This document shows positions 1,755-31,706 of a stretch of DNA of 64,000 nucleotides, piece after piece. The stretch is from contig JAFSZV010000010.1 of assembly GCA_017455565.1 (NCBI GenBank), forward strand, positions 1 to 64,000. The letters run 5' to 3'. Every line of letters begins with the position of its first letter. Within the stretch, counting starts at the first letter, position 1. The notes under the pieces are model-generated. The model worked only from the letters and a program-made list of their open reading frames with translations, was not told the DNA's origin and did not search any database. Position numbers and translations under genes: made by a program. This DNA comes from Clostridia bacterium (GTDB lineage: Bacteria > Bacillota > Clostridia > Oscillospirales > Butyricicoccaceae).

Positions 1755-2483
1755 TCATCCTTGCTTTGACAGCAGATAATAGCGCGGGCTGCGGCCCACG
1801 CAGTCGGTGTCCAAATCGGACACAGACGCAAAGATCAGATCCCCGGACACGGAGACCTTTTTCCGGCGGGCGGCGGAGCTGTATTTGCCGGCATAGAGGC
1901 CGGAGTCGGCAATGCAGAGCCTGCCGTCCAGCTCGCCCAGGATGGCCATGTAGTGGCCGCCGGTGGAAAAGAGCCCGCGCCCCGCCGTGTTGCAGATGGC
2001 CACGCCGCCGGACGCCAGATGGGCCCGCAGCTCGGCCGCGCTGGACGTCTGTCTGCAGATCACGCGATAAGCGATCTCGAGCTTTTCGGTCAGCCGGCGC
2101 ATGTCGGTCCCGCCGGGCACCCTCGCGCCCCAGGCGCGGGAAAACTGGGCCATGGTGGCCACGGGGACGCGGACGCCGATCAGCGCGCCCAGGGCGTTTA
2201 CGGCGGCGCAGACGCCGCAGCCGCCGCTTTTGACGGTGGCCTGCTCGTAACCCGGGGCCGGGTAAGGGATGGAGGCGTAATCATTTTGGTTTACTAAAAA
2301 GCCCCGGAGCTCCCGCAGCCAGCGCGTCTTCGGCCCGCGGGAGGTGGGATAGGTCACCGGCCAGAGGCCGGAGAGCGTACGCGGCCCCAGCTCGCAGAGA
2401 TCCCCGGCGTCGATGTAGCTTTTTGGATCGGCCGCGCCGGTGGCCTGGAGGACGGAGATCCGCCGAAAGGCCATGACCCTCAT
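1755..2483 (-). CDS. Phage endolysin, C39-like cysteine peptidase
   Basis: 242 aa, with a papain/C39-type catalytic set visible: SGGCGVCAAVNALG (Cys89), GGHYMAILGE (His177) and IADSG (Asp193). It is expected to cleave peptidoglycan cross-bridges or stem peptides at the end of the lytic cycle. Its ATG overlaps the holin stop (ATGA), which supports a lysis role. There is no signal peptide, so release should depend on the holin. The first ~75 residues are of unknown type and there is no SH3 or LysM domain. One dispersed 17-bp inverted repeat encodes VSDLDT about 20 residues before the C-terminus. Confidence 0.8.
   Translation of the reverse strand: MRVMAFRRISVLQATGAADPKSYIDAGDLCELGPRTLSGLWPVTYPTSRGPKTRWLRELRGFLVNQNDYASIPYPAPGYEQATVKSGGCGVCAAVNALGALIGVRVPVATMAQFSRAWGARVPGGTDMRRLTEKLEIAYRVICRQTSSAAELRAHLASGGVAICNTAGRGLFSTGGHYMAILGELDGRLCIADSGLYAGKYSSAARRKKVSVSGDLIFASVSDLDTDCVGRSPRYYLLSKQG
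1807..1823 (+). repeat. Dispersed 17-bp inverted repeat, copy 1
   Basis: GTGTCCAAATCGGACAC, exact consensus with arms GTGTCC/GGACAC, near the 3' end of the lysin gene. Identical to copies 2, 4 and 6. Proposed binding site for the prophage ParB. Confidence 0.85.
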
Positions 2484-2890
2484 TCGGACGCCCCCTCCTC
2501 CTCGTTGTAGACCAGAGCCTCATAGCAGGGCTCGGCGGTCTGATCGACCTCCGGCAGCGCCAGCAGCTCGCCGATGCCGGCACCGTGATTAAACTCGCAG
2601 ACGACGGATTCAATAAGCGTGTTCATTTCCAGCTCCGAAATGGGGATGCCCTTTTCCTGCAGCATGGCCACGATGCCCTCCTGCGCCTTTTTCAGCTTTT
2701 CGGGGCCGCTGAGGTCGTAGTAGAGCTGCTCCACCGCCTTGACACAGGTCCGGGCCACGTCGCGTTTGGTCCGGTTGTCCAAATACCGCTGGCACATGGC
2801 CTTGATCTGCATGCCGAGCCAACCGGCGACGGCGGTAAACACCGCCATGATGATGGGGATGATGTAAGTCACAAAGATTTCGCGATTCAT
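2480..2890 (-). CDS. Phage holin, LLH family
   Basis: 136 aa with one N-terminal membrane segment (FVTYIIPIIMAVFTAVAGWL) and a charged helical domain (KRDVARTCVKAVEQLYYDL, KLKKAQEGIVAMLQEKGI). This is the layout of the LL-H phage holin family (Pfam Phage_holin_6_1). Role: timed permeabilisation of the membrane so the lysin can reach the wall. The start has a strong ribosome site (AAGGAGGAAGAAAATG). It directly precedes and overlaps the lysin gene. Confidence 0.85.
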   Translation of the reverse strand: MNREIFVTYIIPIIMAVFTAVAGWLGMQIKAMCQRYLDNRTKRDVARTCVKAVEQLYYDLSGPEKLKKAQEGIVAMLQEKGIPISELEMNTLIESVVCEFNHGAGIGELLALPEVDQTAEPCYEALVYNEEEGASE

Positions 2891-2904
2891 TTTCTTCCTC
2901 CTTC

Positions 2905-4974
2905 TTACCACGTCACGGCCAGCACATAATCACCGGCCAGCAGCGGGTAGCCGTAGTAGACGTAAAGGTCGACACTTCCATCCGCGTTGACCCGCACAGC
3001 GCCGACGCTCCCGGTCACGCCATTCGTCCCGTCCAGCAGATTGACGGTAGGCATCGAGGTGATGGACGCGCCGCCCGTGGCCGAAGTCCTGAATTGAGCG
3101 CCCTGGTTTTCCGCGCTGCTGCCGATTTTTGCGTTTTTAGCGGCGACAAAGCCAAGCCCGATATCGGCAGATGGCGTCGTTTTGTACCACATTACGCCAA
3201 GCGAAGCATCGTTGCGGTGCTGCGCGATAACCGCCGCCAATGGGCTGGACGACGGGATCGCCGTGTACCAACTGGTGGCCGAAATTGCCTCCGTAACCGT
3301 AAAATGCGCCGTGACGCCGCCCTCCGTGTAATTGACAGGCGGATCGGCGATTACGCACACCATGTCGCCGGGCGTTTCATTTTTGGTGGAAAACCGGACA
3401 TAGGCCGCCGCCGTGATGTCCTTCATCGTGCCGGTGCCGCCGTCATAAACGGTTGTGCCGGGCGTAAAAGTAAGCGCCTCGCCCGCAACGAGCACCCCAT
3501 CAGAGATCATGCGCACAACGCGATAGGCCGCAATAAACGCATGATTAGCCCCGTAAAAACAGATGCCGCCGTTTGAGCCCTCAGCCCCCGTAAAGCCATC
3601 AAAGAAGATCTGTTTGCCTTGCGTGAACGGGATGAAACCCGTGACATTCTGCCCGCTTGCCGCCGTTTCCACGCCGGAGGAATTGAGCCTATATCCTTCC
3701 TTATAGCCCGTGCCGTTGTAAATGTTGCCCTGCTCATCCGTCGAGATCGGGATTTCATTTTCCGTTGCGGCCGTAGCCGAAGCGGTTATAACGACATTCC
3801 CCGTTACCCGCGGGATGGAGATCAAGCCGCGGTTTGCTGGATACTCTATCTCGCTGTAAACGCTCCCCTTAACGTCAACGCCGCCCATCGTGATTGCCAC
3901 GCTATCCAGCTTATAGCCGCCGCCCGGCGTGATGACGGCCTCGTAGGGCTGATACATCGGTGCGCTTGCCGCCGCATTGTCAATCGTGCAGTGTGCCAGC
4001 GTTTTCGACACCGTGACCGTCGGGACGGCCGGGGTCAGCGTTTCAGGCGTGCCGTCGATCATGGCGGCGCGGTAAGCGTTAATCTCCGTGGCGGTAAATC
4101 CCAGCGACACCGCGAAGGTGACGCACTTATCCCGAAAGGTGCTGCCGCTCAACGCCTCGATCTGCCCGATCAGATGCGCCCAATCACTGGTGCCTCCTTG
4201 ATAGTTGCCATTACGGGCCCTCTCGCTGTAAAAGCTCGTAAGCTCGTAATCCTTGTCGATGTCGCTCTGGCTCATTCCCAGCAGGCCCTCCAGCACACAT
4301 GCCAGCGTTCCGGTTCTGTCCGCGCCCATGGAGCAGTGGAAAATCACGGGCTCGCCGTGCGTAACGGCGTCAAAAACGGCCCGCAAGTTGGTGCGCCATG
4401 CCCCGGTGTCGGCAAGACTGTACATCGCGTAGCTCGGATGGCAAACATAGCGCAGTTTTCCGGGGAATGCTTCCACGTTGTCCGCGGTCAGATCCACTTC
4501 CACGCGGATTCCGAGCTGGTTGATAACCAGGTCTTCATCCGCTGCCGCAGGGTTGCCAGACCGGAACAGCAATCCATATTTTACGGTGCCGCCGTCACAG
4601 GCCCAGCCGCCCAGGTCCCTCATGTTGCTGGTGGCGCTGTTGATCCACCGCAGGCGGTCAAGGGGCTTCACCGTCCCTGCTTTGTTGGCGGTTGCAAACG
4701 GCGTTTTTACAAGCGGGATTTCGTTGTAAAACGTTACGCTGTCAACCGTTTTGCCGATCGGCTTAGTGTTGGCCGTCACTGCCGGCGTGGGCGCATAATT
4801 TTGGACATCGCTATCCGTGTAGGCCGCGCCGGTGTAATCCACCTCCGCCAGATAGCTCCGCACCGCCGCGGGGCACTGATGCCACGTAACATTTTCAATA
4901 CCAGACCCGCCGCCTCCACCGCCGCCGAGCCCTTTGCCGGCGGCATAACCCATCAAAAAATCATGATTGATCAC
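2905..4974 (-). CDS. Phage tail protein with embedded tyrosine-phosphatase domain
   Basis: 689 aa from a GTG that overlaps the preceding stop (GTGA) and follows AAGGAGG. Residues 1-26 end in a glycine run (GLGGGGGGGSG), typical of phage tail proteins. Residues ~108-300 match the Tyr_phosphatase3 type: NMRDLGGW at 117-124, GLLFRSG at 134-140, LGIRVEVDL, and the P-loop HCSMGADRTG with Cys214 and Arg220 intact. Residues ~310-415 resemble Ig-like surface repeats (YEAVITPGGGYKLDSVAITM). The rest is beta-rich and probably receptor- or glycan-binding. It lies between fibre genes and holin, so I infer a tail fibre or tip protein. An enzymatic phosphatase in that place is unusual; phosphoester removal from surface polymers or delivery into the host are both guesses. 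Confidence 0.8.
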   Translation of the reverse strand: MINHDFLMGYAAGKGLGGGGGGGSGIENVTWHQCPAAVRSYLAEVDYTGAAYTDSDVQNYAPTPAVTANTKPIGKTVDSVTFYNEIPLVKTPFATANKAGTVKPLDRLRWINSATSNMRDLGGWACDGGTVKYGLLFRSGNPAAADEDLVINQLGIRVEVDLTADNVEAFPGKLRYVCHPSYAMYSLADTGAWRTNLRAVFDAVTHGEPVIFHCSMGADRTGTLACVLEGLLGMSQSDIDKDYELTSFYSERARNGNYQGGTSDWAHLIGQIEALSGSTFRDKCVTFAVSLGFTATEINAYRAAMIDGTPETLTPAVPTVTVSKTLAHCTIDNAAASAPMYQPYEAVITPGGGYKLDSVAITMGGVDVKGSVYSEIEYPANRGLISIPRVTGNVVITASATAATENEIPISTDEQGNIYNGTGYKEGYRLNSSGVETAASGQNVTGFIPFTQGKQIFFDGFTGAEGSNGGICFYGANHAFIAAYRVVRMISDGVLVAGEALTFTPGTTVYDGGTGTMKDITAAAYVRFSTKNETPGDMVCVIADPPVNYTEGGVTAHFTVTEAISATSWYTAIPSSSPLAAVIAQHRNDASLGVMWYKTTPSADIGLGFVAAKNAKIGSSAENQGAQFRTSATGGASITSMPTVNLLDGTNGVTGSVGAVRVNADGSVDLYVYYGYPLLAGDYVLAVTW

Positions 4975-5198: not shown

Positions 5199-5238
5199 CA
5201 AACTTCCTTCTTTCTTCAATTATTTTATTTAGCGCGTA

Positions 5239-5913
5239 TTAAGCATCATCACCAGCATCAACCGTAGTTGGATTCAGCCATTCCGTCGTGGCAACTATGA
5301 TTTCCGTGCCCGGCACTGCAATGGCGTCATAGCTGGCCACATTCCAGCTGGCCTTGCTAATTAAGCTACCTCTGTAGCGGTAACAGTTCATGCCTTGCGC
5401 CGAGAGAATCTCATTTTGCGCGTAAGATGTTTTCTTTTCAAGCATGCTGAAACCCAGAAACGAGCCGGGAAGGCCGCTCTCTGCCAGGAGATACGATTGA
5501 TAATTTGCCGTGTTCGTTACACCGTTGTTTGAGCCGATCACCATTTTCTTGACGTGAATTACCAGATAACGCCCGAACCGCCATCGGGTTTGTGACGAAG
5601 CAGCCAGGCTGCCCTCGACGCCGAGGACCGTCACCCCCTGCTTGATGTTGCTGGGGATCAGCTTTGCCTGCTCGGCGGCGTCAATGGCCACGGTGCCGGA
5701 TCCATCGTGATAGCCCTGGGGGACGGTGTAGACGCCCGCCTTGCTAACGATCGCCCCGGTGACGCCGCCGCGGTTGGGCATGGTGCCCGTGATGGCTGCG
5801 CCGGAGGCGTCGTGCGCCGTGGCCCCCGAGAGCAGGCTCCCGGCGGCCACGGTGTCGGACGTCAGATCGATGAGGGTGGTGCCGTTTGCCAGCACCACCT
5901 TATTCGCGGCCAT
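5239..5913 (-). CDS. Phage tail fibre-like protein, distal paralogue
   Basis: 224 aa. The first ~105 residues (LIDLTSDTVAAGSLLSGATA; GTMPNRGGV; YTVPQGYHDGSGTVAIDA; LGVEGS) repeat those of the next gene upstream almost motif for motif. This pattern belongs to collar or fibre repeats in Firmicutes siphoviruses. The remaining ~120 residues are unrelated and beta-rich, the likely specificity end. ATG/stop overlap with the paralogue shows tight coupling. Confidence 0.75.
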   Translation of the reverse strand: MAANKVVLANGTTLIDLTSDTVAAGSLLSGATAHDASGAAITGTMPNRGGVTGAIVSKAGVYTVPQGYHDGSGTVAIDAAEQAKLIPSNIKQGVTVLGVEGSLAASSQTRWRFGRYLVIHVKKMVIGSNNGVTNTANYQSYLLAESGLPGSFLGFSMLEKKTSYAQNEILSAQGMNCYRYRGSLISKASWNVASYDAIAVPGTEIIVATTEWLNPTTVDAGDDA

Positions 5914-6509
5914 CAGGCCGACGCGCCGATGGTCACGGTCTGACCGCCGGCGGCGTTGTCGCTATACGTCACGGTGATCGCCGCCACGGTGACCTGGGAC
6001 AGGCAGGTGTAGCCGGTGTCGGGCAGCACCACCTGCTGGGCGAAAGTGGGCGTCACGGCCTTGGCCTGCTTGTTTTCCGACTCTGAGCCGGACATCGTGC
6101 CCTCCACGCCCAGGATGGTGATGCCCTCGCGGATGTTGCCGGGGATCAGCTTGGCCTGCTCGGTGGCGTCGATGGACACCTTGCCGGAGCCGTCGTGGTA
6201 GCCCTGGGGAATGGTGTACTGACCCGTCTTGGTGGCGATCGTCCCGTTGACGCCGCCGCGGTTGGGCATGGTACCCGTCAGCTGCGCGCCCCGGGCGTGG
6301 GCCGTCTTGCCGGCGAGGATCTCACTGACGGCGGCGGTGTCGTCGGACGTGTCGCTGTCGTAATCGCATGAGCCGGTGATGGGAGCGCCGCTCTTGTCGT
6401 GGGCCGTGTAGCCGGAGAGCAGATGGGCGGCGTCGACGGTGTCGGCGGTCAGATCGATCAAGACCTCGCCGGAGGCGAGGACGACCTTGTTGTTGTAAGT
6501 GTTAGGCAT
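5913..6509 (-). CDS. Phage tail fibre-like protein, proximal paralogue
   Basis: 198 aa with the same repeat module as its neighbour (LIDLTADTVDAAHLLSGYTA, GTMPNRGGV, YTIPQGYHDGSGKVSIDA, LGVEG). It has an extra internal copy of the AHDKSGAPITGSCDYDSD type and a short C-terminus ending VTYSDNAAGGQTVTIGASA. Probably part of the same fibre or baseplate substructure, arising by tandem duplication. Confidence 0.75.
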   Translation of the reverse strand: MPNTYNNKVVLASGEVLIDLTADTVDAAHLLSGYTAHDKSGAPITGSCDYDSDTSDDTAAVSEILAGKTAHARGAQLTGTMPNRGGVNGTIATKTGQYTIPQGYHDGSGKVSIDATEQAKLIPGNIREGITILGVEGTMSGSESENKQAKAVTPTFAQQVVLPDTGYTCLSQVTVAAITVTYSDNAAGGQTVTIGASA

Positions 6510-7068: not shown

Positions 7069-7091
7069 GTGGATCCCTCCTTTCGGGGGCG

Positions 7092-7108
7092 GTGTCCAAA
7101 TCGGACAC
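7092..7108 (+). repeat. Dispersed 17-bp inverted repeat, copy 2 (intergenic)
   Basis: GTGTCCAAATCGGACAC, exact consensus, in the 46-base gap between two tail genes, so coding cannot explain it. Confidence 0.88.
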
Positions 7109-7114
7109 CGCACA

Positions 7115-12639: not shown

Positions 12640-13193
12640 TTAGCCACCTCCTTTCAAAAGAAATTCAGAGAGGGACGGCGAAGCCGGCCGGGCCGTGTCC
12701 GACTTGGACACCGGCGGCCGGAAGTGCTCCCGATAGAGGGCCATGCACCGGGCCGGCGTCATGGTCCGCCAGAAGGTCGGCTCATCCAGCCGGAGCTCCA
12801 CCATCCAGATGCGCAAGTACCACGCGAAGTTGAGCGCGCTCAGCTCCGCGTGGCTTCCGCGTTTTTTGCGTCGTCCTCGCTGTCGTCGCCGGACAGGGCC
12901 AACACCACCAGCTCCATCATGCCGTCGCGGACGGCGTCGAATTGAGCAGGCTTCAGCATGCGGCCCACCTGGCGCTCGGTGTAGCGCACGTCCAGCCCCT
13001 GGGCGTCGGCGGCGTCGTTGATCGCCGCCGTCAAGAATTGGAGCACGCTGCGGGTCAGGCGCTTGCCGGTGAGAGCAGCGCCCAGATTGCCGCCGTTCAT
13101 TTCCTGGACGTCAGCCAGGACGTTCATATTGACGGCCAGGTCGTAATGCCGACCGTCGAAATCCAGCGGGAGCGTTTTAAGCCTGATATCCAT
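12640..13193 (-). CDS. Tail assembly chaperone frameshift product (G-T type)
   Basis: The 117-aa chaperone frame (12840-13193) contains A-AAA-AAC at 12861-12867, in the correct phase for a -1 slip. The -1 frame then stays open for ~75 codons (AELSALNFAWYLRIWMVELR ... PSLSEFLLKGGG) to the TAA at 12640-12642, directly before the tape-measure ATG. This matches the lambda G/GT arrangement conserved in siphoviruses. A dispersed inverted repeat (VSKSDT) sits in the extension. Confidence 0.8.
12695..12711 (-). repeat. Dispersed 17-bp inverted repeat, copy 3
   Basis: GTGTCCAAGTCGGACAC on the minus strand: arms exact, one spacer base differs. It lies in the frameshift-only part of the tail chaperone gene. 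Confidence 0.82.
12840..13193 (-). CDS. Phage tail assembly chaperone (zero frame)
   Basis: 117 aa (DIRLKTLPLDFDGRHYDLAV, NMNVLADVQEMNGGNL, FLTAAINDAADAQGL), the type found between major tail protein and tape measure in HK97-like Firmicutes phages. The start at 13193 is chosen at MDIRL; the longer frame runs into the tail-tube stop. It should coat the tape measure during tail assembly. Near its end lies the slippery heptamer that makes the longer form. Confidence 0.85.
   Translation of the reverse strand: MDIRLKTLPLDFDGRHYDLAVNMNVLADVQEMNGGNLGAALTGKRLTRSVLQFLTAAINDAADAQGLDVRYTERQVGRMLKPAQFDAVRDGMMELVVLALSGDDSEDDAKNAEATRS
12861..12867 (-). promoter_or_regulatory. Programmed -1 frameshift slippery site
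   Basis: The minus strand reads A AAA AAC with zero-frame codons GCA AAA AAC. Slipping back one base joins the chaperone to an otherwise start-less open frame. Zero-frame translation stops at TGA (12840-12842), six codons later. Confidence 0.82.
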
Positions 13194-15166: not shown

Positions 15167-16576
15167 TTAGGTCCCGGAGGGAGGAGTGACGCCGGCGAAG
15201 GTGGCGGTGGTGACGGGGTTGACGTTGTTATAGCTCACCACCACAAAGCCCTCGCCGCGGGCGGGCTTGGCGTCCCAGCGGTCGGTGCCCTTAAAGACGG
15301 TCTGATCCTGGATAAACATGGGCAGGTCGCTGTAAGAAACCTTGGCGCCGGTGCGGTGCAGGCCGATCATCAGGCTGGAGTAGCCGCCGGCGATGTTGTA
15401 ATCGCTCATGCACTCCTCCTCGATGATCTCGCCGCCGATGACGGGCATGGTGTTGTTCATGCCGGCCAGCAGAGCCGCGTTCATGTCGAACGCCAGGCAG
15501 CGGGTCAGCAGATCGATGTGGGTCTTGCGATTCATCACCCACACGGGCTTGCCGTCGGAGTAGGCAGGATCAGCCACGCCCAGGGCGGCCAGCAGGGGCT
15601 GGAAGAATTCCGCGCCAACCTTGGCCAGCAGGTTCAGCTTGAGGACGTGGGTGGCGCTCAGGTCGGTAAAGGTGCCCTGCTTGGTACCCCACCAGGCGGG
15701 CTGAGTCGCGGCGGCCAGGCGGGTGACAAAGCCCACGGGCATGTTGGTGCCGGTGCCGAAGATCACGGCCTTGTCAAAGGCCAGGCCCATCGCCTTAAAG
15801 ATCATCTCCATCACGGTGGTGATCAGGCGGAGGTCGTCGTCATCCTCCAGGGTGGCGTTGGGGATGGCGGCATAGCCGCACACCTTGGCGCCGTCCAGCT
15901 CCAGATTCGTAAAGGACAGGGTCAGCTCGGACACGGCCGCAGTGGCCTCCACCCAAAATGCCTCGGGGACGGTGCCGGCGATGTTCAGGCGGCCGGTGCC
16001 CTTGACGGTGTGGACGGTGATGTGGCTCACCAGCTTGCTGTAGCGCTCGAAATTATTTTCCAGCAAGCCCAGCAGGACGGTGGGGATACCCAGATCGGCA
16101 TTGGTGACGGCGCGGGTCTGGCCGCGCATGGCACGCAGCTGAGCGGCAAAGTTTTTGACGTCGTCCCGCTGCATGATGCGGTCGCGTTCTTCATAGCTCA
16201 GGCCGAACCAGCGGCGGTCTGCGGTGGCATTGTAAGGCATGGGATCATTTCTCCTTTCGTTTTCTGCGGCCGGCGCGGGGTCGGCCTGGTCGTTGCCGCG
16301 CTCCTGGGCGGCTTCCAGCTCGGCGATCTGCCGGGTGATGTCGTCGATCTCCGCCTGCAGCGTGTCGATGGCGGCGTCGTTCTCAGTGATCTGGGTGTCC
16401 AAATCGGACACGGCCTGGTCACAGACGTTCAGCTCCTCCTCGGTGGCTGCCTCGTTGATGTCGCTCTCCAGCTCGGCGGATCTCTGCCGGAGGGTTTCGC
16501 GGGTCTGCTGCAGCGCGGTCATGTCCGCATTGCGGGCATTGAGCCGGGCACGCAGCATCAGGACTTTCAGTGCCAT
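15167..16576 (-). CDS. HK97-fold major capsid protein with delta domain
   Basis: 469 aa. Residues 1-~95 form a coiled-coil scaffold (ALQQTRETLRQRSAELESDI, DTLQAEIDDITRQIAELEAA) that the adjacent protease should remove. The shell domain follows (NLELDGAKVCGYAAIPNATL, WVMNRKTHIDLLTRCLAFD, GGEIIEEECMSDYNI). The start has AAAGGAGAG upstream. The cleaved part also hosts a dispersed inverted repeat (VSDLDT at ~56-61), i.e. in sequence not kept in the virion. Confidence 0.93.
   Translation of the reverse strand: MALKVLMLRARLNARNADMTALQQTRETLRQRSAELESDINEAATEEELNVCDQAVSDLDTQITENDAAIDTLQAEIDDITRQIAELEAAQERGNDQADPAPAAENERRNDPMPYNATADRRWFGLSYEERDRIMQRDDVKNFAAQLRAMRGQTRAVTNADLGIPTVLLGLLENNFERYSKLVSHITVHTVKGTGRLNIAGTVPEAFWVEATAAVSELTLSFTNLELDGAKVCGYAAIPNATLEDDDDLRLITTVMEMIFKAMGLAFDKAVIFGTGTNMPVGFVTRLAAATQPAWWGTKQGTFTDLSATHVLKLNLLAKVGAEFFQPLLAALGVADPAYSDGKPVWVMNRKTHIDLLTRCLAFDMNAALLAGMNNTMPVIGGEIIEEECMSDYNIAGGYSSLMIGLHRTGAKVSYSDLPMFIQDQTVFKGTDRWDAKPARGEGFVVVSYNNVNPVTTATFAGVTPPSGT
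16395..16411 (+). repeat. Dispersed 17-bp inverted repeat, copy 4
   Basis: GTGTCCAAATCGGACAC, exact consensus, within the delta-domain codons of the capsid gene. Confidence 0.85.
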
Positions 16577-18348: not shown

Positions 18349-20480
18349 GTGATCTCCTCCTCTCGGTCCGGTCCGCCGAACCACGCAGATCCGGCGGCGC
18401 TTTTGCTTGTCATGTCTTCCAGATAGGCACAGGCCGCAAAGACGGCCGCGTCAAAGATGTCGATGCGCAGCTCCGGCGCGATCTTTTGGTACTGGACGGC
18501 GTCGTCGGTCTTTTCCACCGCCGCCACGTTCTGCACGCAGTACTCAAACGGCTCGGCGTGGCAGTAATAGAGCGTGCCGCGCTTGGCGCTGGCCTCTAAA
18601 TACCGAAAGCCCTCGGATTTCCGGTAAAAGAGCTGCGGCTGGTCCCGCACCGGGAACCGGGCCTTTTTCATGGCCACGTAATATTCGCGGCAGAATTTCC
18701 GGTCGTGGCCGATGATCCGAAATTTATGGCCGGCGCTGCGCTTTTCCTCGTACCATCGCACCACGTCGATGTGATTGGTGATGTTGTCGTTGGTCATGTC
18801 CAGCCAGCCGTCATCCAGCCAGCCGAAGAGCGGGATCTGATCCTGCTGCGCCTTGACCATGGCAGCCGGCCGCGGGAACCAGGCGTGCGGGATGATGATG
18901 TCCACGCCGTTATAGTGGCCGAAGATGCAGGCCGCCGTCAGGTCGTGGAGCTTGGACAGGTCCACGCCGCCGTACCACTTGATGGGCAGCTTGGCCAGCT
19001 CGGCAAGCGTCCAGTTATACTTTCGATCGCTTGTCCGGAACTCCTCGATGTCAAACCACGCCCGCAGGGCGGCCGTGAAGACGTTCAGGCTCTTGTTCAA
19101 AAACTCAGGCCGGAGCTGCGGATCGGCCGCCGCCTGGGCGGCGTCGTCGATCATGCTCTGAGGCCGGATGGAGTGCCCCCAGCCGGGGCTTGCCGCCCGG
19201 AGCACGGCGGGATCGGTGATATCCACCTCGCCGCTGGGCGTCCTGGGCGCCCGGGCGATAAAGATAAAGATCCGGTCGGCCCAGGCATCCTTGACGGTGC
19301 CGTCCAGGATCTTGGACAGCAGCTCCACACGCTTGGCCAAAAAGCCCTGGGCATTGTCGCCGCCGGAGCTGATGACGATGATCAGCTTGTTGGTGTAGGC
19401 CTTGGTGGCGTCGCGCAGGATTTGGTACTGCTTCGGCCCTTTATAGGTGTGCGCCTCATCCGCGATGATGATGTTGGCGTTAAAGGAGTCCTGCTTGTCC
19501 GGGTTGGCCGCCAGGGCGTTGATGGAGACAAAGCCGTCGCCGATGTCGCCGGAGATCGAGCGCTCCATGTTGTTGTCGATGATCCGCAGCCCGCAGGCCG
19601 GATCGTCGTCCACGGTGATCCGGTTCCGGCGGAGGTTGTACTTCAAAAAGTCAAAGCCCTCCAGCGCCTGCTTGAGGGCGCCGCCCACCTCGTAGACCTT
19701 CGAGCCGGAGGCCCGCTCATAAAGGGCCAGCGCCCAGGCCAGCGCCGCGGCAAAGGTCGTCTTGATGTTTTTTCGGGGGACGAAGTCCAGGCATTCCTGG
19801 AAGCGCCGCTCCCGGCTGCCCGGAAGATAAAAGCCCATCAGGTTCCAGACGATGAACTTGTGGTAAGGCAGGAGGATGAACGGGGTCCCGCGCAGGGGCG
19901 TGGCGTCGATGGCTTCGCCCTGCTGGTGGCAGACGGTGGTCTCGATGATGGCGATGATCTCACAGGCCGGCTCCGGCCGAAAATCCCACTTCCCGGTGTC
20001 CAAATCTGACACGTAGCGCCGGCATGCCTGGACGATCTCCTGGCAGAGCCCGGATTCGCCGGAGAGCACGCTCTCCACAAAGCCGTCCACCTCCGCCTGG
20101 ATGTCCGAGGCGTGATCCAGGGCGTAATCGTGAGCCGCGTCCAGCAGCTCCTCGATGCGGCTCTTCCCGGCGGCGCCGGTGTCCAGAGCGTTGCGCACTT
20201 TGTTGAGGCCGGTGGGCGTCAGACCCAGCTGATTCCGCAGAGCGGTGACGTCCTTTCGCATCTGCTCCACCACGGCCCAGTTGGGGTCCTTGGCGGTGTA
20301 CTTTCCGCCGGTCTTGTTCACCAGCTCGGCCACCATTTTGCCGCCGGCTGCCCGCCAGGCTTTCTCGGCCCGGGAGAGCTCGCGCTCGGCCTTGGCCAGC
20401 TGCTTGATCGTCGGCTCGAAGATCGCGTTGTAGGTCCCCACCGAGACCATGCTGTCCCGGATCATCTGCTCTTTGCCCAT
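18345..20480 (-). CDS. Terminase: fused P27-type small and large subunits
   Basis: 711 aa in one uninterrupted frame. Residues 1-~98 match P27-family small terminases (KQLAKAERELSRAEKAWRAA ... QLGLTPTGLNKVR). Residues ~110-711 are a YmfN/Terminase_1-type large subunit: Walker A-like PRKNIKTTF at 235-242, Walker B IIIADEAH at 337-344, nuclease-type GGVDLSKLHDLT with Asp507. The two are normally separate adjacent genes. A strong ribosome site (GGAAGGAGGTGGACG) precedes the first ATG. A dispersed inverted repeat (VSDLDT, residues 157-162) lies early in the large-subunit part. An internal start for a free large subunit cannot be excluded. Confidence 0.9.
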   Translation of the reverse strand: MGKEQMIRDSMVSVGTYNAIFEPTIKQLAKAERELSRAEKAWRAAGGKMVAELVNKTGGKYTAKDPNWAVVEQMRKDVTALRNQLGLTPTGLNKVRNALDTGAAGKSRIEELLDAAHDYALDHASDIQAEVDGFVESVLSGESGLCQEIVQACRRYVSDLDTGKWDFRPEPACEIIAIIETTVCHQQGEAIDATPLRGTPFILLPYHKFIVWNLMGFYLPGSRERRFQECLDFVPRKNIKTTFAAALAWALALYERASGSKVYEVGGALKQALEGFDFLKYNLRRNRITVDDDPACGLRIIDNNMERSISGDIGDGFVSINALAANPDKQDSFNANIIIADEAHTYKGPKQYQILRDATKAYTNKLIIVISSGGDNAQGFLAKRVELLSKILDGTVKDAWADRIFIFIARAPRTPSGEVDITDPAVLRAASPGWGHSIRPQSMIDDAAQAAADPQLRPEFLNKSLNVFTAALRAWFDIEEFRTSDRKYNWTLAELAKLPIKWYGGVDLSKLHDLTAACIFGHYNGVDIIIPHAWFPRPAAMVKAQQDQIPLFGWLDDGWLDMTNDNITNHIDVVRWYEEKRSAGHKFRIIGHDRKFCREYYVAMKKARFPVRDQPQLFYRKSEGFRYLEASAKRGTLYYCHAEPFEYCVQNVAAVEKTDDAVQYQKIAPELRIDIFDAAVFAACAYLEDMTSKSAAGSAWFGGPDREEEIT
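19996..20012 (+). repeat. Dispersed 17-bp inverted repeat, copy 5 (one arm mismatch)
   Basis: GTGTCCAAATCTGACAC: one base in the right arm differs from consensus. It is located in the terminase gene. Confidence 0.7.
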
Positions 20481-22711: not shown

Positions 22712-23194
22712 TCACACCTCGCCCAGCACGTCCAGCGCGGCCACGGCCTCGCCCTCGGTCAAAAAGAGCGAGCGGCCGACTTGATTCAGCCGGCGGCGCT
22801 GGAAAAGCTGTCCGCCGGTGGGCGTCCGATAGACGGTGTCGATGTAGCAGCGGTTGGGCCGCTGGCCGATGGTGATGCTTTCCACCGTCACCGGCCGGAC
22901 GATGCCCGCCGACTTGATTGGCTGCCACACCGTCGCCCCGGGCGAAACAGGTAGCTCCACCGTGATCTTGTCATTTTCCATAAGGTCCTCCCTCCCCCGG
23001 AGGGCTTCGCCGCCCTCCGGGATGATGATATAATAATACTCCTCCGGCTCCGCCTGGCGGCGCAGTGCCCGGAGCTCCCGCAGGTTGCCGATCCAGATCA
23101 GCGCAAGGATGGCGGCCACCAGCAGCGCCAGAAGGATAAAGACATAATCGAGCCCACGCCGCAGCGCCTTGAGCTGCTCTCTGATCTCATCCAT
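22712..23194 (-). CDS. Early phage protein: membrane anchor joined to small cytosolic domain
   Basis: 160 aa. Residues 10-38 hold a membrane helix (YVFILLALLVAAILALIWIG) preceded by a short cytosolic helix. From Met72 (ATG at 22981, with its own GGGAGGA site) a second domain ends in GRSLFLTEGEAVAAL, the C-terminal motif also seen in the two small early proteins near 29 kb. Either one fused gene or two products by internal initiation. Confidence 0.6.
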   Translation of the reverse strand: MDEIREQLKALRRGLDYVFILLALLVAAILALIWIGNLRELRALRRQAEPEEYYYIIIPEGGEALRGREDLMENDKITVELPVSPGATVWQPIKSAGIVRPVTVESITIGQRPNRCYIDTVYRTPTGGQLFQRRRLNQVGRSLFLTEGEAVAALDVLGEV

Positions 23195-24656
23195 CCGACG
23201 CCTCCTTTTTCTGCGGCAGCGGCGTCCACCACAGCGGCGTCACCGCAAACGTGAGCTTCGATGCCGGGAAGCGCCACGCGCCATCTTCCCACAGTGCGAG
23301 CCTCACGCGGCTGTCGTCGCTCACCGGGAGGATCACCGACGCCAGCATGGATTTCTCCGGCGGCTTGGTCGAGCCCGGATACCATCCGCCCGCGCCGAGC
23401 TCCGGCTCGGGCCGCGCGGATGCCGGTGTGGGGTCGTCGGTGATCCCGCAAAGATAGTCGGCAGAGCAATCCAGCAGCCCGGCCACGGCGGCAACCGTTT
23501 CCATCTCACTGACGCCGTAGTTGTAGACGTTCAGGCCGGCGTCAAACTCCGGATCGGACAGGGCGGCATTGATCGCGGTGGTGTGCCATTGCGGGATGAG
23601 CCCGGTGGCCTTGGCGATGTCGTTGACCGTCAGCCGTTTGGCGTTGGCCAGCGGCATGATCCGCTGCCACACGGCGCGGACGCGCTGCCCGTTTTTCCGG
23701 CCCGCCGTCTTGTTTTTCCGCTCTTCCTCGGCCTTGCGCTTTTTGGCGGCGGCTTTCTCCTGCTTTTTCTTTTCCTCGGCCGCCGGGCAGCGGAAGGAGC
23801 AGTCCTTCCAGCAGCTCATGCAGCAGGTCGCCCCGTCGCACATTTCCCAGCTGTTGCGCACTTTGATGTCGTGCTCGGCAAAGCGCAGGCCGTTGGTGCA
23901 TTCGGGGCAGCCATTCAGGGAGGCCCTCGGATGCAGGTAAGCCTCAGCGTTGGCCAGCACCCTGCCGGTAACGTAGCCGTTTACCGATGATTTGGAGCTG
24001 CTCTCGGAGATCATTTTCTGCAGCACCTCCGGCATGCGGGCGATGTTATAGGCGGCGTCGGTGGAGATCTGGCCTTGCTCCCAGCGCAGCGTGAGATCCG
24101 TCCGCAGCTTGGTGCGGATCACCTTGAGGGTGTTGAGCTTTGTCTTGCTCACCTTAACGGCCTCTGCAACATGGTCGCGCATCCGACCCGGAAACTCCAC
24201 GCCCTTTTCCTGGAGCTCGTACAGCAGGCGCTCCACCCGCTCGGCCTGCATGCTCAGCTCGCCGTCGGTCATCCGCCGGGTGTCGGCGTTGGCCAGGATG
24301 AGCTTGAGCTCGGTCATTTCCGGCAGCGCGTCCGGCTGCTCGACGATGCAGGGCACCTTTGCAAATTGATCCTTACCCTCGTTGATCAGCAGCTTCAGCG
24401 CGGCCATGCGACGGTGACCGGAGATCACTGTGTACCCGCCGTCCTCAGGCCGCACCAGGATCGGCTGCTGCAGGCCCACCAGCTCGATGCTGCCCGCCAG
24501 CTCTTCCACGTTGGCCACGCTTACGCTGTAAAAATTCTTGGGATCGGGCCGAATCTTGTCGATGTCGATGTAGACGATCTGCTTTTCGCCGGTGTCCGAT
24601 TTGGACACCGACCCCAGCACGGCCGCCAGGTCAAAGCCTTTTTTGGTCTCGCTCAT
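23187..24656 (-). CDS. parB: ParB-family partition protein with Cys cluster and XRE-like domain
   Basis: 489 aa; ATG overlaps the ParA stop. Residues ~25-125: ParB N-terminal fold (YIDIDKIRPDPKNF, LVGLQQPILV, ISGHRRMAALKLL). ~128-215: central DNA-binding helices (SKTKLNTLKVIRTKLRTDLT, GQISTDAAYNIARMP). 250-290: eight cysteines (CPEC ... CDGATCCMSCWKDC ... C), a likely zinc site. ~293-325: Lys/Glu coiled coil. ~340-407: XRE-like HTH (LTVNDIAKATGLIPQWHTTA; AVAGLLDCSADYLCGITDDP). ~425-482: DUF551-like end (WYPGSTKPP ... TPLWWTPLP). A typical ParB is ~280-350 aa and lacks the last three parts. It probably binds the dispersed inverted repeats, one of which (VSKSDT, residues 17-22) is inside this gene. 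Confidence 0.85.
   Translation of the reverse strand: MSETKKGFDLAAVLGSVSKSDTGEKQIVYIDIDKIRPDPKNFYSVSVANVEELAGSIELVGLQQPILVRPEDGGYTVISGHRRMAALKLLINEGKDQFAKVPCIVEQPDALPEMTELKLILANADTRRMTDGELSMQAERVERLLYELQEKGVEFPGRMRDHVAEAVKVSKTKLNTLKVIRTKLRTDLTLRWEQGQISTDAAYNIARMPEVLQKMISESSSKSSVNGYVTGRVLANAEAYLHPRASLNGCPECTNGLRFAEHDIKVRNSWEMCDGATCCMSCWKDCSFRCPAAEEKKKQEKAAAKKRKAEEERKNKTAGRKNGQRVRAVWQRIMPLANAKRLTVNDIAKATGLIPQWHTTAINAALSDPEFDAGLNVYNYGVSEMETVAAVAGLLDCSADYLCGITDDPTPASARPEPELGAGGWYPGSTKPPEKSMLASVILPVSDDSRVRLALWEDGAWRFPASKLTFAVTPLWWTPLPQKKEASDG
24592..24608 (-). repeat. Dispersed 17-bp inverted repeat, copy 6 (inside parB)
   Basis: GTGTCCAAATCGGACAC on the minus strand, exact consensus, at codons 17-22 of parB. 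A centromere at the par locus itself is usual for ParABS. Confidence 0.88.
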
Positions 24657-25438: not shown

Positions 25439-25451
25439 CACTACGCTCCTT

Positions 25452-25807: not shown

Positions 25808-25817
25808 GGGCACCTCC

Positions 25818-27143
25818 TTAAAACGGGATTTTTTGCTGATCATTGTCCGGCAAAAGAGTAAATCCCGAGCCGTCGGACGCCACCTGTTTCAGCCTAGCCG
25901 GCGGGACATCCTTGCCGCGATAATGGCCGAGCACAGAAAACCGCTGCGTCCAGCCCTCGAATTTGAGTGAGAGCGCCAGTTTTTCGCCGTCCTTGTTTTT
26001 GCTGACCTTAAGGATGCGGTCGGACCGGTAGTCCGCCGGGTCCTCCGGATAGATCAGCGCCACCACGTCGGCGTCCTGCTCGATCTGGCCGGACTCCCGA
26101 AGATCTGACATGGTGGGCGGGAGCTGCTTGCCGCCCTTGGTGGTCTCGGGGCGGGAGAGCTGTGACAGAGCCACAACGAGGACATCGTGCTGCTGAGCCA
26201 GCTCGTGGAGCTCCTGGGAGATCGCCGTCACCTGCTCATAGCGCGAGGCGCCGCGGGAGCGGATGATCTGCAGATAGTCCACAAAGATCACGTCGTAACG
26301 CCGCGACAGAGTCACGGCCCGGATGTCGGACACCGACATGCCGGAGGTGCGGATGATCTCCACCTGGGCATGCTGGAGCTCGTGCTCCGCCTGCTCCAGC
26401 GCGGCCAGATCGGCGGCGCTGAGATCGTGCTGCAGGACCTTTTTGTTGCCCACGCCGGAGAGGTTGACCAGATTGCGGATCGCAATGTCCTGGCTGTCGG
26501 TCTCCAAACTGAAATAGCCCACGCGAAGGCCTCTCGACATGTTGCGGGCGATTTGGAGCGTCAGCGCGGTCTTGCCAGAGCTGGCGAAGCCGCCAACCAC
26601 CACGAATTTGCCTTTGCGGAGGAAGACTTCGTCGTCGAAGATCCGCAGGCCGGTTTTGATAAAGCGCGGCCGCTCCTTCCGCCGGACGGCGTCCATGTAA
26701 GCCTTGGCGGCGTCGCCGATGGAGACGATCTCCGCGCCGCGCCGGTCGCAGGCCAGGGCATGGAGCTTGTCCAGCAGGTGCTCGGCGCTGCTCAGGTCCT
26801 CGGCCGAGACGATGGCAAAGGCCGCCTGCTGCATGGCAGCCAGCCGGGAGGCCTCCCGGAGCTGGCCGATGTAAAAGTCGATGGAATCAGACTTGCCCGG
26901 AGCTTCCCAGGCCTTGTTGATCGCGGGCCCGCAGGCCGGATCCACCGCGGCAAGGGAGAGCTCATTGACGGGCGCCCCATCAAAGTGCAGCTGACGGATC
27001 GCCAGAAACAGGGCCCGGGCGGCGTCGACGGTAAAGTCCTCCGGCTTGAGCTCGGCCACGGCCACGCCGACCGTGTCCGGAAAAAGCAGCATCGATCCGA
27101 GGATCGAAAATTGCAAATCGCCCAGCGTGATCTTGTCGGCCAT
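25818..27143 (-). CDS. Replicative DNA helicase, DnaB type
   Basis: 441 aa. N-terminal DnaB domain (LGDLQFSILGSMLLFPDTVG), RecA-like domain with Walker A GGFASSGKTALT, Walker B VIFVDYLQIIRSRG, and C-terminal SQLSRPETTKGGKQLPPTMS and LRESGQIEQDADVVALIY. Somewhat shorter than the ~450-470 of chromosomal DnaB. Coupled (ATGA) to the initiator, which presumably loads it. Confidence 0.95.
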   Translation of the reverse strand: MADKITLGDLQFSILGSMLLFPDTVGVAVAELKPEDFTVDAARALFLAIRQLHFDGAPVNELSLAAVDPACGPAINKAWEAPGKSDSIDFYIGQLREASRLAAMQQAAFAIVSAEDLSSAEHLLDKLHALACDRRGAEIVSIGDAAKAYMDAVRRKERPRFIKTGLRIFDDEVFLRKGKFVVVGGFASSGKTALTLQIARNMSRGLRVGYFSLETDSQDIAIRNLVNLSGVGNKKVLQHDLSAADLAALEQAEHELQHAQVEIIRTSGMSVSDIRAVTLSRRYDVIFVDYLQIIRSRGASRYEQVTAISQELHELAQQHDVLVVALSQLSRPETTKGGKQLPPTMSDLRESGQIEQDADVVALIYPEDPADYRSDRILKVSKNKDGEKLALSLKFEGWTQRFSVLGHYRGKDVPPARLKQVASDGSGFTLLPDNDQQKIPF

Positions 27144-27883
27144 CACAGCACCTCCCGATCCTCGCCCCAGCCGGAGGAAGATCCGACCACAGGCGCCTTG
27201 TCCTCATCCTCCCACCGTCGGCCGTTGAGCCAGGTAGAGGCGTAGGGCATGTACCGCCTTGGATTTTCCGAGGCTGCAATCTGCCGGAGCAGCGCCGGGC
27301 CCATGGCGTCGATGGTGGCGTCCGAGGGCTTGAGCCTGTCCCAAGCGCGGATTGCCGCCTGCTTGTCCTCGCCGCGGGGGTAGGTTTTCCAAAAGCCGGC
27401 GAAGCGCTCGGGCTTCCAGACCGGGGCCGCCTTCGGGGCGCGCTTTTTCGGCTGCGGCTTTGCGGGCACGTCCCCCGGCTGGGGGACTATAGGGGGTAAT
27501 GGTAAATTTCTTGTATTATTCTCCACGAAATTTTTTTCGTGAGGGGTCACGAAAATTTTTTCGTGAGGGGGGTCCGGGATCAGCGGGCGATCGATCCAGA
27601 GCCGACGCTCCACAACCTCGCCCTTGTCATCCCGCACCACCTCAACGGCGATGTAGCCGTGCTCGGCCAGCGTTGCTGTGAGACCCTGGACCGTCCGCGG
27701 CGTGAGGCCGAAGAGCTTGCCCAGGTGCCCGTTGGACGCCCAGCAAAATCCACGGCTGTCCGCCAGTGCGCTGATCTCCGCATAAAGCAGCTTTGCGTTT
27801 GGCGGCAGCTCCGGATCGTAACGGACGCCCGCCGGAATCACGGCCCAGTAAGCCGGACGCCTGGCCTCATCCACGGGGATCAC
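27143..27883 (-). CDS. Phage replication initiator, winged-helix/DnaD-like
   Basis: 246 aa from a GTG with a weak ribosome site. Residues ~28-95: winged-helix domain (LPPNAKLLYAEISALADSRG, KLFGLTPRTVQGLTATLAEH). A charged linker follows, then a C-terminal domain (FAGFWKTYPRGEDKQAAIRA). The linker DNA carries two 22-bp iteron-like repeats at 27525-27570 (protein PHEKIFVTPHEKNFVE). Lambda O-type logic: the protein binds its own gene and recruits the downstream helicase. Confidence 0.8.
   Translation of the reverse strand: MIPVDEARRPAYWAVIPAGVRYDPELPPNAKLLYAEISALADSRGFCWASNGHLGKLFGLTPRTVQGLTATLAEHGYIAVEVVRDDKGEVVERRLWIDRPLIPDPPHEKIFVTPHEKNFVENNTRNLPLPPIVPQPGDVPAKPQPKKRAPKAAPVWKPERFAGFWKTYPRGEDKQAAIRAWDRLKPSDATIDAMGPALLRQIAASENPRRYMPYASTWLNGRRWEDEDKAPVVGSSSGWGEDREVL
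27525..27570. repeat. Two iteron-like repeats; putative phage origin
   Basis: Two 22-bp copies (ACGAAATTTTTTTCGTGAGG + GG and ACGAAAATTTTTTCGTGAGG + GG) separated by two bases, each containing an inverted CACGAAA/TTTCGTG or ACGAAA/TTTCGT core. AT-rich DNA in a GC-rich gene, in the linker of the initiator. Confidence 0.65.
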
Positions 27884-27903
27884 CCCCGAGAGGGCGAATC
27901 AAA

Positions 27904-28545: not shown

Positions 28546-28673
28546 CTGTCCGCTCAGGTAGTGTTTTTGTTATCCTTGGCGCGGAGCCCGGCTTGGAATA
28601 GGAGGCCCGGGCGGCGGAATCAACCGCCCGGCGATCCGCCGGATCTGTAAATTTCGGTCATTCTCCTTTGCGC

Positions 28674-28955: not shown

Positions 28956-28958
28956 CGT

Positions 28959-29560: not shown

Positions 29561-29787
29561 CTTCCATCCTCATTAAAACGCTCATCGGTAAAGCGGCCGC
29601 TGGTGGAAAAATTCCACCAGATCGCGCCGTCGGCGTTGACGTGGACCCCGTGGGCCACCATCAGCCAGCCATCCGGCCGGAGCAGGATGGCGTCGCCGAA
29701 GCTGGAATCCTTGCAGAGATAAACGGAGCCGTTGCTCTGGTGGCGGTAGATCTGTCCCGGGGTAAGATCCACGCATGCGATGCTCAT
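29548..29787 (-). CDS. Hypothetical early phage protein, 79 aa
   Basis: SIACVDLTPGQIYRHQSNGS, VYLCKDSSFGDAILLRPDGW, LMVAHGVHVNADGAIWWNFS. Beta-rich, no membrane segment; resembles small early proteins that carry a PGQIY...GxxYLC pattern. Overlaps both neighbours by a few bases, so it is part of one coupled operon. Confidence 0.65.
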   Translation of the reverse strand: MSIACVDLTPGQIYRHQSNGSVYLCKDSSFGDAILLRPDGWLMVAHGVHVNADGAIWWNFSTSGRFTDERFNEDGRWKD

Positions 29788-30035
29788 TGCGTCACCCCTT
29801 TCAGCGCGTCCAGCAGCTCCGCCCGGGGAATGTTAAGAGCGGACTCCAGCCGCAAAATCTGCAAAACGGTCATCGCGCTTCCTTGCTTCCGCTTGCGGTT
29901 CCAGGTCGACACAGACAGACCCAGCTTGCGCGCCAGCGTCTCCGCCGTGGTGCCTCGAAGGATCTGATACTTGGCAATCAGCGCCTCGACCTGCCGGTCG
30001 ATCCGATCGCCCTGTGTAAGCATGATCTGGCTCAT
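29784..30035 (-). CDS. Helix-turn-helix regulator, 83 aa
   Basis: The start at 30035 (SQIMLTQGDRIDRQVEALIA) follows AGAGGAGGACCGGCAG; the longer frame overlaps the upstream regulator. The HTH (GTTAETLARKLGLSVSTWNR, KRKQGSAMTVLQILRLESAL) suits a Cro- or CII-like regulator of the early switch. Confidence 0.72.
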   Translation of the reverse strand: MSQIMLTQGDRIDRQVEALIAKYQILRGTTAETLARKLGLSVSTWNRKRKQGSAMTVLQILRLESALNIPRAELLDALKGVTQ

Positions 30036-30052
30036 CTGCCGGTCCTCCTCTC

Positions 30053-30262
30053 TCACGCCGACGCATCCGTCGGCTCGAATAGATCGTTGATGCTGCACCC
30101 CAGCACCGCCGCCAGCTGCGGGAGCTGACGGGTGCGAGGTAAAAAGGTCTCAGACTCCCAGCAGCTCACGACGCCCTGAGAGACCCCGACGCGCTCGCAA
30201 AGCTCGGTCTGCGTCATTTCTGCGGCCTCTCGTGCGGCCTTAATACGCATGATCTGCTGCAT
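30053..30262 (-). CDS. Cro-like XRE repressor
   Basis: 69 aa, almost all HTH: IKAAREAAEMTQTELCERVG, VSQGVVSCWESETFLPRTRQ, LAAVLGCSINDLFEP. First gene of the lytic operon, divergent from the LexA-like repressor across 178 bases containing the operator repeats. Ribosome site GGAGGTGGAGCC. Expected to bind the same operators and favour lysis. Confidence 0.85.
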   Translation of the reverse strand: MQQIMRIKAAREAAEMTQTELCERVGVSQGVVSCWESETFLPRTRQLPQLAAVLGCSINDLFEPTDASA

Positions 30263-30283
30263 GGCTCCACCTCCAAAAAATAA

Positions 30284-30311
30284 ATATCAAATATCAAATA
30301 TCAAATATTTG
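30284..30311. promoter_or_regulatory. Operator repeats of the lysis-lysogeny switch
   Basis: Three tandem ATATCAA units (30284-30304) run into the palindrome CAAATATTTG (30302-30311), between the divergent cro-like and repressor genes. A minus-strand -35-like TTGGCA (30315-30320) is adjacent, so binding here would block the lytic promoter. Confidence 0.6.
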
Positions 30312-30389
30312 TGTTGCCAATAATATAACCCCGAAAACGGTGGCTGTCAAGTGTTTTATTGGAATTTTATTGGATTTTCCGGAATTTCC

Positions 30390-30418
30390 TTGATTATTTG
30401 CCCGACCTATACTATAAA
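30390..30418 (+). promoter_or_regulatory. Putative repressor promoter
   Basis: TTGATT, 17-base spacer, TATAAA, 22 bases before the repressor GTG. Confidence 0.6.
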
Positions 30419-30440
30419 ATTATTTGAGGAGGCGATAAAA

Positions 30441-31034
30441 GTGAATAATCTGCGAACGGCCAGAAAGGCTAAGAATCTCACGCAACAGGAAGTCGCAGAA
30501 GCAATCAACATTTCTCAAGGCTCTTATTCCGCTTGGGAAACCGGACGCACCAAGATCGACGCAAGGTCTCTGCAGCAGCTTGCCGCGCTGCTCGGCGTAT
30601 CGACCGACTATCTCCTGGGCAATACAACCGCCCCCGCAGGACGAATCAAGATCCCCGTCGTGGGTACGGTGGCCGCCGGCCTCCCGTGCTTTGCGGAGGA
30701 CGACATCCTGGATTATGAGGAGGTCACCCCCGAGATGGCCGCCCGGGGCGAGCTCTTCGGCCTGCGGGTCAAGGGCGCCAGCATGGAGCCCCAGATCATG
30801 GACGGCGACGTGGTGATCGTCCGGAGACAGGACGACGCCGAGACCGGCGACACCGTGGTGGCCAAGGTCAACGGCGATGAGGCCACCGTCAAGCGGCTCA
30901 AAAAATCGCCGGGCCTGCTGACGCTGGTGCCAGCAAACCCGACGTTCGATCCGTTATTTTTTACGCCGGAGCAGGTGCTTGCCATGCCGGTGCAGATCAT
31001 CGGCAAGGTGATCGAGCTGAGACGGAAATTTTGA
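30441..31034 (+). CDS. LexA/CI-like phage repressor
   Basis: 197 aa from a GTG behind GAGGAGG. Residues ~1-62: XRE HTH (LTQQEVAEAINISQGSYSAW, LLGVSTDYLLG). Residues ~75-197: S24 peptidase fold with the cleavage-type PVVGTVAAGLPC hinge, Ser in GASMEPQIMDGD, Lys in VVAKVNGDEATVKRL. RecA-stimulated self-cleavage, hence SOS induction, is expected. Confidence 0.92.
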   Translation: MNNLRTARKAKNLTQQEVAEAINISQGSYSAWETGRTKIDARSLQQLAALLGVSTDYLLGNTTAPAGRIKIPVVGTVAAGLPCFAEDDILDYEEVTPEMAARGELFGLRVKGASMEPQIMDGDVVIVRRQDDAETGDTVVAKVNGDEATVKRLKKSPGLLTLVPANPTFDPLFFTPEQVLAMPVQIIGKVIELRRKF

Positions 31035-31046
31035 GGGAGGAAAAGC

Positions 31047-31685
31047 ATGAAATTGAAATGGACGTTTCTCATCGGGGTGATCCTCGCCGGATGGAGTGTG
31101 ACTGCCATAATTGAGGGAGTGCCTATCGTTGGCATTGCTCTGATCGCAGCGGCTGTCATCGTTTTCAGGAAGAGCGTCGTCAAGCGAAGTGATCAATCCA
31201 ACCCCCCGCAGACAGCCCCCTCACAGCAACCGCCTCTTGCAGAAGCGCCCCATGAAAAACAAAGCGAAAAGAAAAAAGAAGAACGATTGACACAGCACAC
31301 CCTCTATGTGCCAGAAATGATAAACGGAGAATATCGGGCTTATTTTTACGAAAACGTCAAGATATTTACGCCAGACGAAATTGCAAAAAAGCTCCGATAC
31401 GACGAATCGCTATGCGGGCAGCTCGTGACGCTGGAGGCAGAGCCGTCGAACGCCTACAACCCCAAAGCGGTAATCGTAAAATGGGGTTATCAAAAGATCG
31501 GATATCTCTACCGCGGAAAGCTGCAGGACATGGCAAATGATTTTATCGCCGACGGTCTGCCGATCTGGTGTGCAACGTCAAGTCTGGATCTGGACGAGCG
31601 AATCATTTACATTTCCATTGCTTTTTATCGGGGTCCCGCCCCAGATTTTGATGATGATGAATTTAAGGATGAAGACTTAGTCTGA
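31047..31685 (+). CDS. Membrane protein with HIRAN-like domain
   Basis: 212 aa. Two close hydrophobic segments (TFLIGVILAGWSVTAIIEGV, PIVGIALIAAAVIVF), a basic/proline/glutamine-rich linker (~50-85), then a HIRAN-like fold (LVTLEAEPSNAYNPKAVIVK, WGYQKIGYLYRGKLQDMAND). HIRAN domains bind DNA ends or stalled forks in helicases. Co-transcribed with the repressor (12-base gap), so expressed in the lysogen; I infer superinfection exclusion or another lysogenic-conversion role. The acidic end is DFDDDEFKDEDLV. Confidence 0.7.
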   Translation: MKLKWTFLIGVILAGWSVTAIIEGVPIVGIALIAAAVIVFRKSVVKRSDQSNPPQTAPSQQPPLAEAPHEKQSEKKKEERLTQHTLYVPEMINGEYRAYFYENVKIFTPDEIAKKLRYDESLCGQLVTLEAEPSNAYNPKAVIVKWGYQKIGYLYRGKLQDMANDFIADGLPIWCATSSLDLDERIIYISIAFYRGPAPDFDDDEFKDEDLV

Positions 31686-31689
31686 TCCA

Positions 31690-31706
31690 GTGTCCAATTC
31701 GGACAC
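31690..31706 (+). repeat. Dispersed 17-bp inverted repeat, copy 7 (intergenic)
   Basis: GTGTCCAATTCGGACAC: arms exact, one spacer base differs. It lies between the HIRAN gene and integrase, outside any coding region. Confidence 0.85.

Follow-up and report, generated by a model that had tools for sequence, protein, structure and literature searches.

The prophage and its insertion site

We analyzed a 64,000-nt stretch of DNA from a member of the Clostridia, referred to here as the window. A prophage of ~32 kb occupies positions 1069 to 33054, between exact 28-bp direct repeats (att). Because att repeats are present at both ends and a tyrosine integrase gene lies beside the second, the prophage is an integrated one. 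Its genes are arranged in the order holin, tail, tape measure, head, portal, terminase, replication protein, parB, parA, dnaB, initiator, repressor, and integrase. The attachment site and several of the genes are as follows.

1069 to 1096, unstranded: attL, 28-bp repeat TTTGGTGGAGGCGAGGGGAATCGAACCC, exact direct copy of 33027 to 33054
25818 to 27146, minus strand: DnaB-like replicative helicase, annotated by profile match
27143 to 27883, minus strand: replication initiator (HTH_36, DnaD-like), annotated by profile match
30351 to 31034, plus strand: S24/LexA-like repressor (Pfam)
31832 to 32872, plus strand: tyrosine integrase (Pfam PF00589)
33027 to 33054, unstranded: attR, 28-bp repeat, 3' end of the tmRNA gene (ssrA)
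33029 to 33375: tmRNA gene predicted by ARAGORN, with tag DNSNLSYAA; serves as the attachment site

Two further repeats were observed within the prophage. The replication initiator gene contains two tandem copies of CACGAAA(T/A)TTTTTTCGTGAGGGG at window positions 27524 to 27570, which resemble origin iterons. In the tail region, a 253-nt direct repeat with 74% identity (window positions 5610 to 5862 and 6098 to 6350) has its source in the duplicated ORFs 5239 to 5913 and 5913 to 6509.

Seven dispersed palindromes in the prophage

All seven of the following palindromes, which we refer to as parS-like sites, lie between the att repeats.

1807 to 1823, unstranded: site 1, GTGTCCAAATCGGACAC; in frame (VSDLDT) in ORF 1755 to 2483
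7092 to 7108, unstranded: site 2, GTGTCCAAATCGGACAC; intergenic, with an ATG that has a strong ribosome-binding site 23 nt downstream
12695 to 12711, unstranded: site 3, GTGTCCGACTTGGACAC; tail chaperone ORF, in its frameshift extension (VSKSDT)
16395 to 16411, unstranded: site 4, GTGTCCAAATCGGACAC; VSDLDT in the major head protein gene; kept in prophage L234
19996 to 20012, unstranded: site 5, GTGTCCAAATCTGACAC, one arm mismatch; VSDLDT in the terminase large subunit gene
24592 to 24608, unstranded: site 6, GTGTCCGATTTGGACAC; 48 nt into parB (VSKSDT), in a predicted disordered linker
31690 to 31706, unstranded: site 7, GTGTCCAATTCGGACAC; intergenic, ~125 nt upstream of the integrase ATG, adjoining a terminator-like hairpin

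The initial annotation had reported seven copies of a 17-bp inverted repeat at these positions, and we recovered every one. Its description of them also held. Six copies have perfect GTGTCC and GGACAC arms around an N5 spacer, the exception being the copy at 19996 with its single mismatch, and four copies (1807, 7092, 16395, and, in inverted orientation, 24592) are identical. Two copies (7092 and 31690) are intergenic, and five are coding: those at 1807, 16395, 19996, and 24592 share one frame and read VSDLDT or VSKSDT, and that at 12695 reads VSKSDT in the frameshifted frame of the tail chaperone; the copy inside parB, at 24592, encodes residues 17 to 22. Such recurrence is beyond chance, as had been proposed: at three or fewer mismatches, we counted 13 strand-matches to the 17-mer, compared to 0.17 in shuffled sequences. 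The 17-mer itself was not found in the literature that we searched.

The initial annotation had seen no copies in the nonprophage part of the window, and for perfect copies this absence extends to the whole 1.86-Mb genome, where six perfect palindromes occur, all six in the prophage. When one mismatch was allowed, the genome-wide count rose to 11, of which 8 lie in the prophage. Frequent copies elsewhere in the host genome were thus not found, and we rejected a host-wide motif on the basis of this genome search. The counterpart of the mismatched 19996 copy is a perfect palindrome in L234, a prophage of 95% identity from another MAG, and the substitution in the window is synonymous (TCC to TCA, Ser); therefore, we regard the 19996 copy as a real but damaged site. 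Neighboring sites in the prophage are 3.6 to 7.1 kb apart. This spacing is more even than random in the window prophage (P = 0.0045), and in a pool of 16 phages, related ones among them, the evenness was matched in 0 of 4,000 simulations.

The ParA and ParB proteins

The two genes that bear on the function of the palindromes lie between the replication protein gene and dnaB.

23187 to 24656, minus strand: parB, 489 aa; PHROG ParB-like, Pfam PF02195
24653 to 25441, minus strand: parA, 262 aa; Pfam AAA_31 (1e-39), Walker motif KGGVGKT, without an N-terminal HTH extension; overlaps the parB start

The locus has the components by which a ParABS system is recognized: a deviant Walker ParA, a ParB with CTPase (ParB/Srx) and DNA-binding domains, an overlapping parA-parB operon on one strand, and one or more palindromic putative parS sites near parAB that vary with ParB. 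The ParB protein consists of an N-terminal helix, a ParB_N/Srx CTPase domain with a GHRR motif (G80-H81-R82-R83, invariant or nearly so), a central DNA-binding domain, and Cys-rich and C-terminal regions. Searched against the PDB, the ParB family profile matched Noc (2.5e-22) as well as Spo0J/ParB, and KorB weakly. The fold of an AlphaFold2 model (mean pLDDT of 80) matches those of Myxococcus xanthus ParB-CDP, Noc, Caulobacter ParB, and KorB; the window ParB models as a CTPase clamp of the Noc/KorB/Spo0J type. Its residues ~250 to 290 form a Cys-rich segment (CPEC...CCMSCWKDC...C) that several relatives also have, a possible metal-binding module that is atypical for ParB.

Palindromes in relatives that encode ParAB

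We used ParA alone as bait, blind to the motif, which fetched 35 viral-contig loci and 42 genomic loci, and defined the site class for relatives as GTGYYC-N5-GRRCAC. The 26 non-redundant viral loci contain 61 class sites, compared to six or fewer matches for independent control patterns; permutations with high counts proved to overlap the true motif, and the comparison is with nonoverlapping controls. Most of the sites in the viral set (45 of 61) are >200 nt from the parB start. In the 14 full records, we detected 56 class sites and no matches to the reversed pattern, and 13 of the 14 were positive. The 29 genomic loci of Oscillospiraceae type, some of which overlap the viral set, yielded 93 class sites versus 0 for the reversed pattern, and no class sites were detected in the 13 genomic loci with other ParAs, mostly from other phyla. 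Neither ParB nor the phrog_3584 Rep protein, each used as a single query, gave a match in viral contigs.

The initial annotation had taken absence from parAB-sharing relatives as evidence against its reading. We found sites in nearly all such relatives, even at ~30% ParB identity, although class sites are absent from some family ParB homologues (L137, which is a full record, and L190, L191, L058, and L068). Among 43 records picked by one exact 17-mer, two or more sites were present in 15 of the 18 with a window-type ParB versus 5 of the 25 without (Fisher P = 5e-5). Most phages have one site 33 to 54 nt into parB; L040, L033, and L086 instead have it between the parA and parB genes.

The stoperators of mycobacteriophage L5 are dispersed, and the prophage does encode a LexA-like repressor, so the palindromes could be operators or stoperators of that S24/LexA-like protein in the L5 style. 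However, the sites do not track the repressor. Its closest relatives (42 to 48% identity) come from phages without class sites, the 43 loci fetched with the repressor (633 kb) hold a single class site, the intergenic DNA upstream of the repressor gene contains no copy, and the arm type of the sites tracks ParB. We therefore rejected the repressor as the palindrome-binding protein, a reading that we consider extremely improbable.

Some prophages carry sites and no cognate parAB. Those on G027 contigs C17, C20, and C33 (L144 to L148 and L163 to L168) have one to three perfect GTGTCCAAATTGGACAC-type sites, one of which is in a shared lysis module (75 to 90% identity), between the genes for holin and endolysin. 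Because these prophages also keep related replication genes, the sites might be read by a different phage protein that is co-inherited with parAB, such as the replication initiator or an early regulator, the proximity to parB being incidental. We regard this as very unlikely: across very diverse phages, a site is found at the parB start or next to it, and the G027 prophages would also be explained by module exchange or by hijacking of the kind practiced by SGI1 (PMC10954446). A further candidate for a ParB-less phage with sites, G030:C14, was rejected; it begins where the ParB-encoding contig C6 ends, and the two are probably one prophage split over contigs.

Paired arm changes and selection on DNA

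Between phages, the arms of the palindromes covary as TCC/GGA, TTC/GAA, or CCC/GGG. G044, for example, has GTGTTC/GAACAC, and MT836068, MT837589, L116, and others have GTGCCC/GGGCAC. These two dialects and an asymmetric one, GTGTTC/GGACAC, change the encoded peptide from VSKSDT to VFNLNT, VPESGT, or VSNLNT; the peptide is altered by the change in the arm pair, and the palindrome is retained. The codon phase of class sites is also not fixed: with ORFs called mechanically, 63 sites are in phase 0, 17 in each of the other two phases, and 27 outside long ORFs. We rejected peptide conservation as the cause of the repeats because paired arm changes alter the peptide and because intergenic and other-phase copies exist. 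The proposal that selection acts on the DNA is borne out by the same pattern, in which arms vary in pairs that preserve the palindrome while the peptide shifts.

Sites within one phage tend to share a dialect. The concordance of arm type within phages was 0.77, compared to 0.27 when permuted (maximum 0.42). Moreover, the dialect of copies away from parB tracks the ParB tree, requiring 20 changes versus 30.3 when shuffled (minimum 26). Both patterns would follow from all copies being read by a single protein, ParB. On the strength of these sequence comparisons, the palindromes are very likely the cognate sites of the phage ParB.

Function of the dispersed sites

Dispersed parS sites are of a known kind, as N15, IncC plasmids, and RK2 illustrate. 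The phage-plasmid N15 is similar to the window prophage in being a temperate phage with a ParA/ParB pair (SopAB) and several separate inverted-repeat centromeres; it has four such sites, with natural repeats of the form GTGCGACC-N2-GGTCGCAC (PMC7205306). However, the N15 prophage is a linear plasmid, whereas the window prophage is integrated, with att repeats at both ends, an integrase, and host DNA beyond attR, and the two differ in repeat sequence, spacer, and ParB type. IncA and IncC plasmids have parABS systems with 7 to 14 dispersed ParB-bound palindromes per element, and SGI1 carries mimic sites (PMC10954446), which makes it a precedent for the G027 sites without parAB. Unlike the window prophage, these elements are conjugative plasmids with one set of 22-bp sites (14-bp core) and no phage-family dialects. 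RK2 also combines a ParB-family protein with dispersed sites, having 12 O_B sites and a KorB that is a CTPase clamp with a dual role in partition and regulation (PMC11790492); it differs in being a plasmid in which KorB is a global repressor together with KorA, whereas the window sites are mostly in structural genes.

Among phages, the cluster A mycobacteriophage RedRock resembles the window prophage in being temperate and encoding ParABS, but parS loci of the RedRock type are 8-bp direct repeats clustered next to parAB (PMC7157519). The Flavonifractor phage Cormatin (ON453905) is similar in its parA-parB-dnaB order, its ParB homologue, and its four perfect sites (15329, 21480, 23600, and 28505), one of them in parB; it is carried by Flavonifractor plautii YL31. 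It differs in having no annotated integrase and no PF00589 match, and its sites are in other genes. Cormatin is an induced, virion-forming prophage, and Hi-C showed no contact domain at the prophage region containing it (PMC10197239), which counts against a partition reading. What is unusual in the window prophage and its relatives is the combination with an integrase, the even spacing of sites embedded in coding sequence, and the phage-wide dialects.

Taken as a whole, the explanation that we consider probable is a ParABS system with dispersed parS sites on an integrating siphovirus of Oscillospiraceae-type Clostridia, in which ParB binding, clamp sliding, and partition are steps that we infer. 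ParB dimers would bind each palindrome, and bound ParB would close into a CTP-dependent clamp and slide onto adjacent DNA, allowing ParA to move or tether the whole phage genome via the loaded ParB. Because the sites are spread evenly, there would be no single centromere; instead, all 32 kb would become the partition complex. The site at the parB start may provide some autoregulation. A ParABS system is odd in this setting, as it is not obvious why a prophage in the chromosome should require partition. Its likeliest use would be the segregation and retention of the unintegrated genome just after infection and again after excision and replication, and partition of this transient genome is the function that we favor. 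The initial annotation had called the sites a distributed centromere array. That reading is supported by the checks on the host genome and on parAB-sharing relatives; the word centromere may be too narrow should ParB also act in silencing or coat the genome.

Two readings keep ParB as the binding protein and assign it another main role. In the first, ParB would be mainly a long-range regulator similar to KorB, its sliding clamps silencing phage promoters in the lysogen. The window ParB belongs to the same fold family as KorB, which works from distal operators by CTP-driven sliding (PMC11790492), and the positions of three sites would suit regulation: 31690 lies ~125 nt upstream of the integrase gene, 7092 lies 23 nt upstream of a start codon, and autoregulation would account for the site at the parB start. 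Near gene starts we see two intergenic sites, the others being coding. Against this reading, most sites are intragenic, their positions differ between phages, the single weak promoter-like match near 31690 is at chance level, and a ParA is encoded beside the window ParB. We consider a mainly regulatory ParB unlikely.

In the second reading, the sites would be chromatin-like loading points from which ParB coats or organizes the whole phage genome, serving its compaction, protection, or tethering to the nucleoid instead of its partition. Sites that are more evenly spaced than random, at intervals of a few kilobases (3.6 to 7.1 kb), fit such a role, but the evenness could also stem from one site per module, and KorB-CTP gave no DNA condensation in vitro (PMC11790492). 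We consider coating in place of partition to be quite improbable. A broader version, which we offer tentatively and judge unlikely, is that ParB and the even, coding-embedded sites would load a phage "chromatin" that silences, compacts, or anchors the integrated or replicating genome; each exchangeable module would bring its own site, and related prophages without parAB would borrow the ParB of a co-resident phage.

Integrase and ParABS in the same phages

The usual explanation for a partition system in a temperate phage is that its prophage is extrachromosomal. We detected a tyrosine integrase in 16 of the 26 records searched; 15 of these 16 encode a window-type ParB, and all 15 have at least two sites, so that integrase and ParABS are paired throughout the family as a rule. 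The well-studied cluster A mycobacteriophages differ, because the two exclude each other there and parABS takes the place of the integrase (PMC7157519). Both an integrase and ParABS are kept by this large, diverse set of gut phages, with parS-like sites in coding genes under selection at the DNA level, and the question of how a centromere benefits an integrated prophage is now directly testable.

Asymmetric sites in one ParB clade

In one ParB clade (G001, G006, G011, G015, G018, G020, G021, and G025; L096 to L104, L154 to L157, and L161), 35 of 39 sites are asymmetric, joining a GTGTTC half to a GTGTCC half, and TCC/TCC sites are absent; if halves paired at random, about half of the sites would be asymmetric. 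Binding by a symmetric dimer does not explain this preference for unequal halves. Together, the natural paired dialects (TCC, TTC, CCC, and asymmetric TCC/TTC) constitute a ready-made experiment in ParB-parS recognition.
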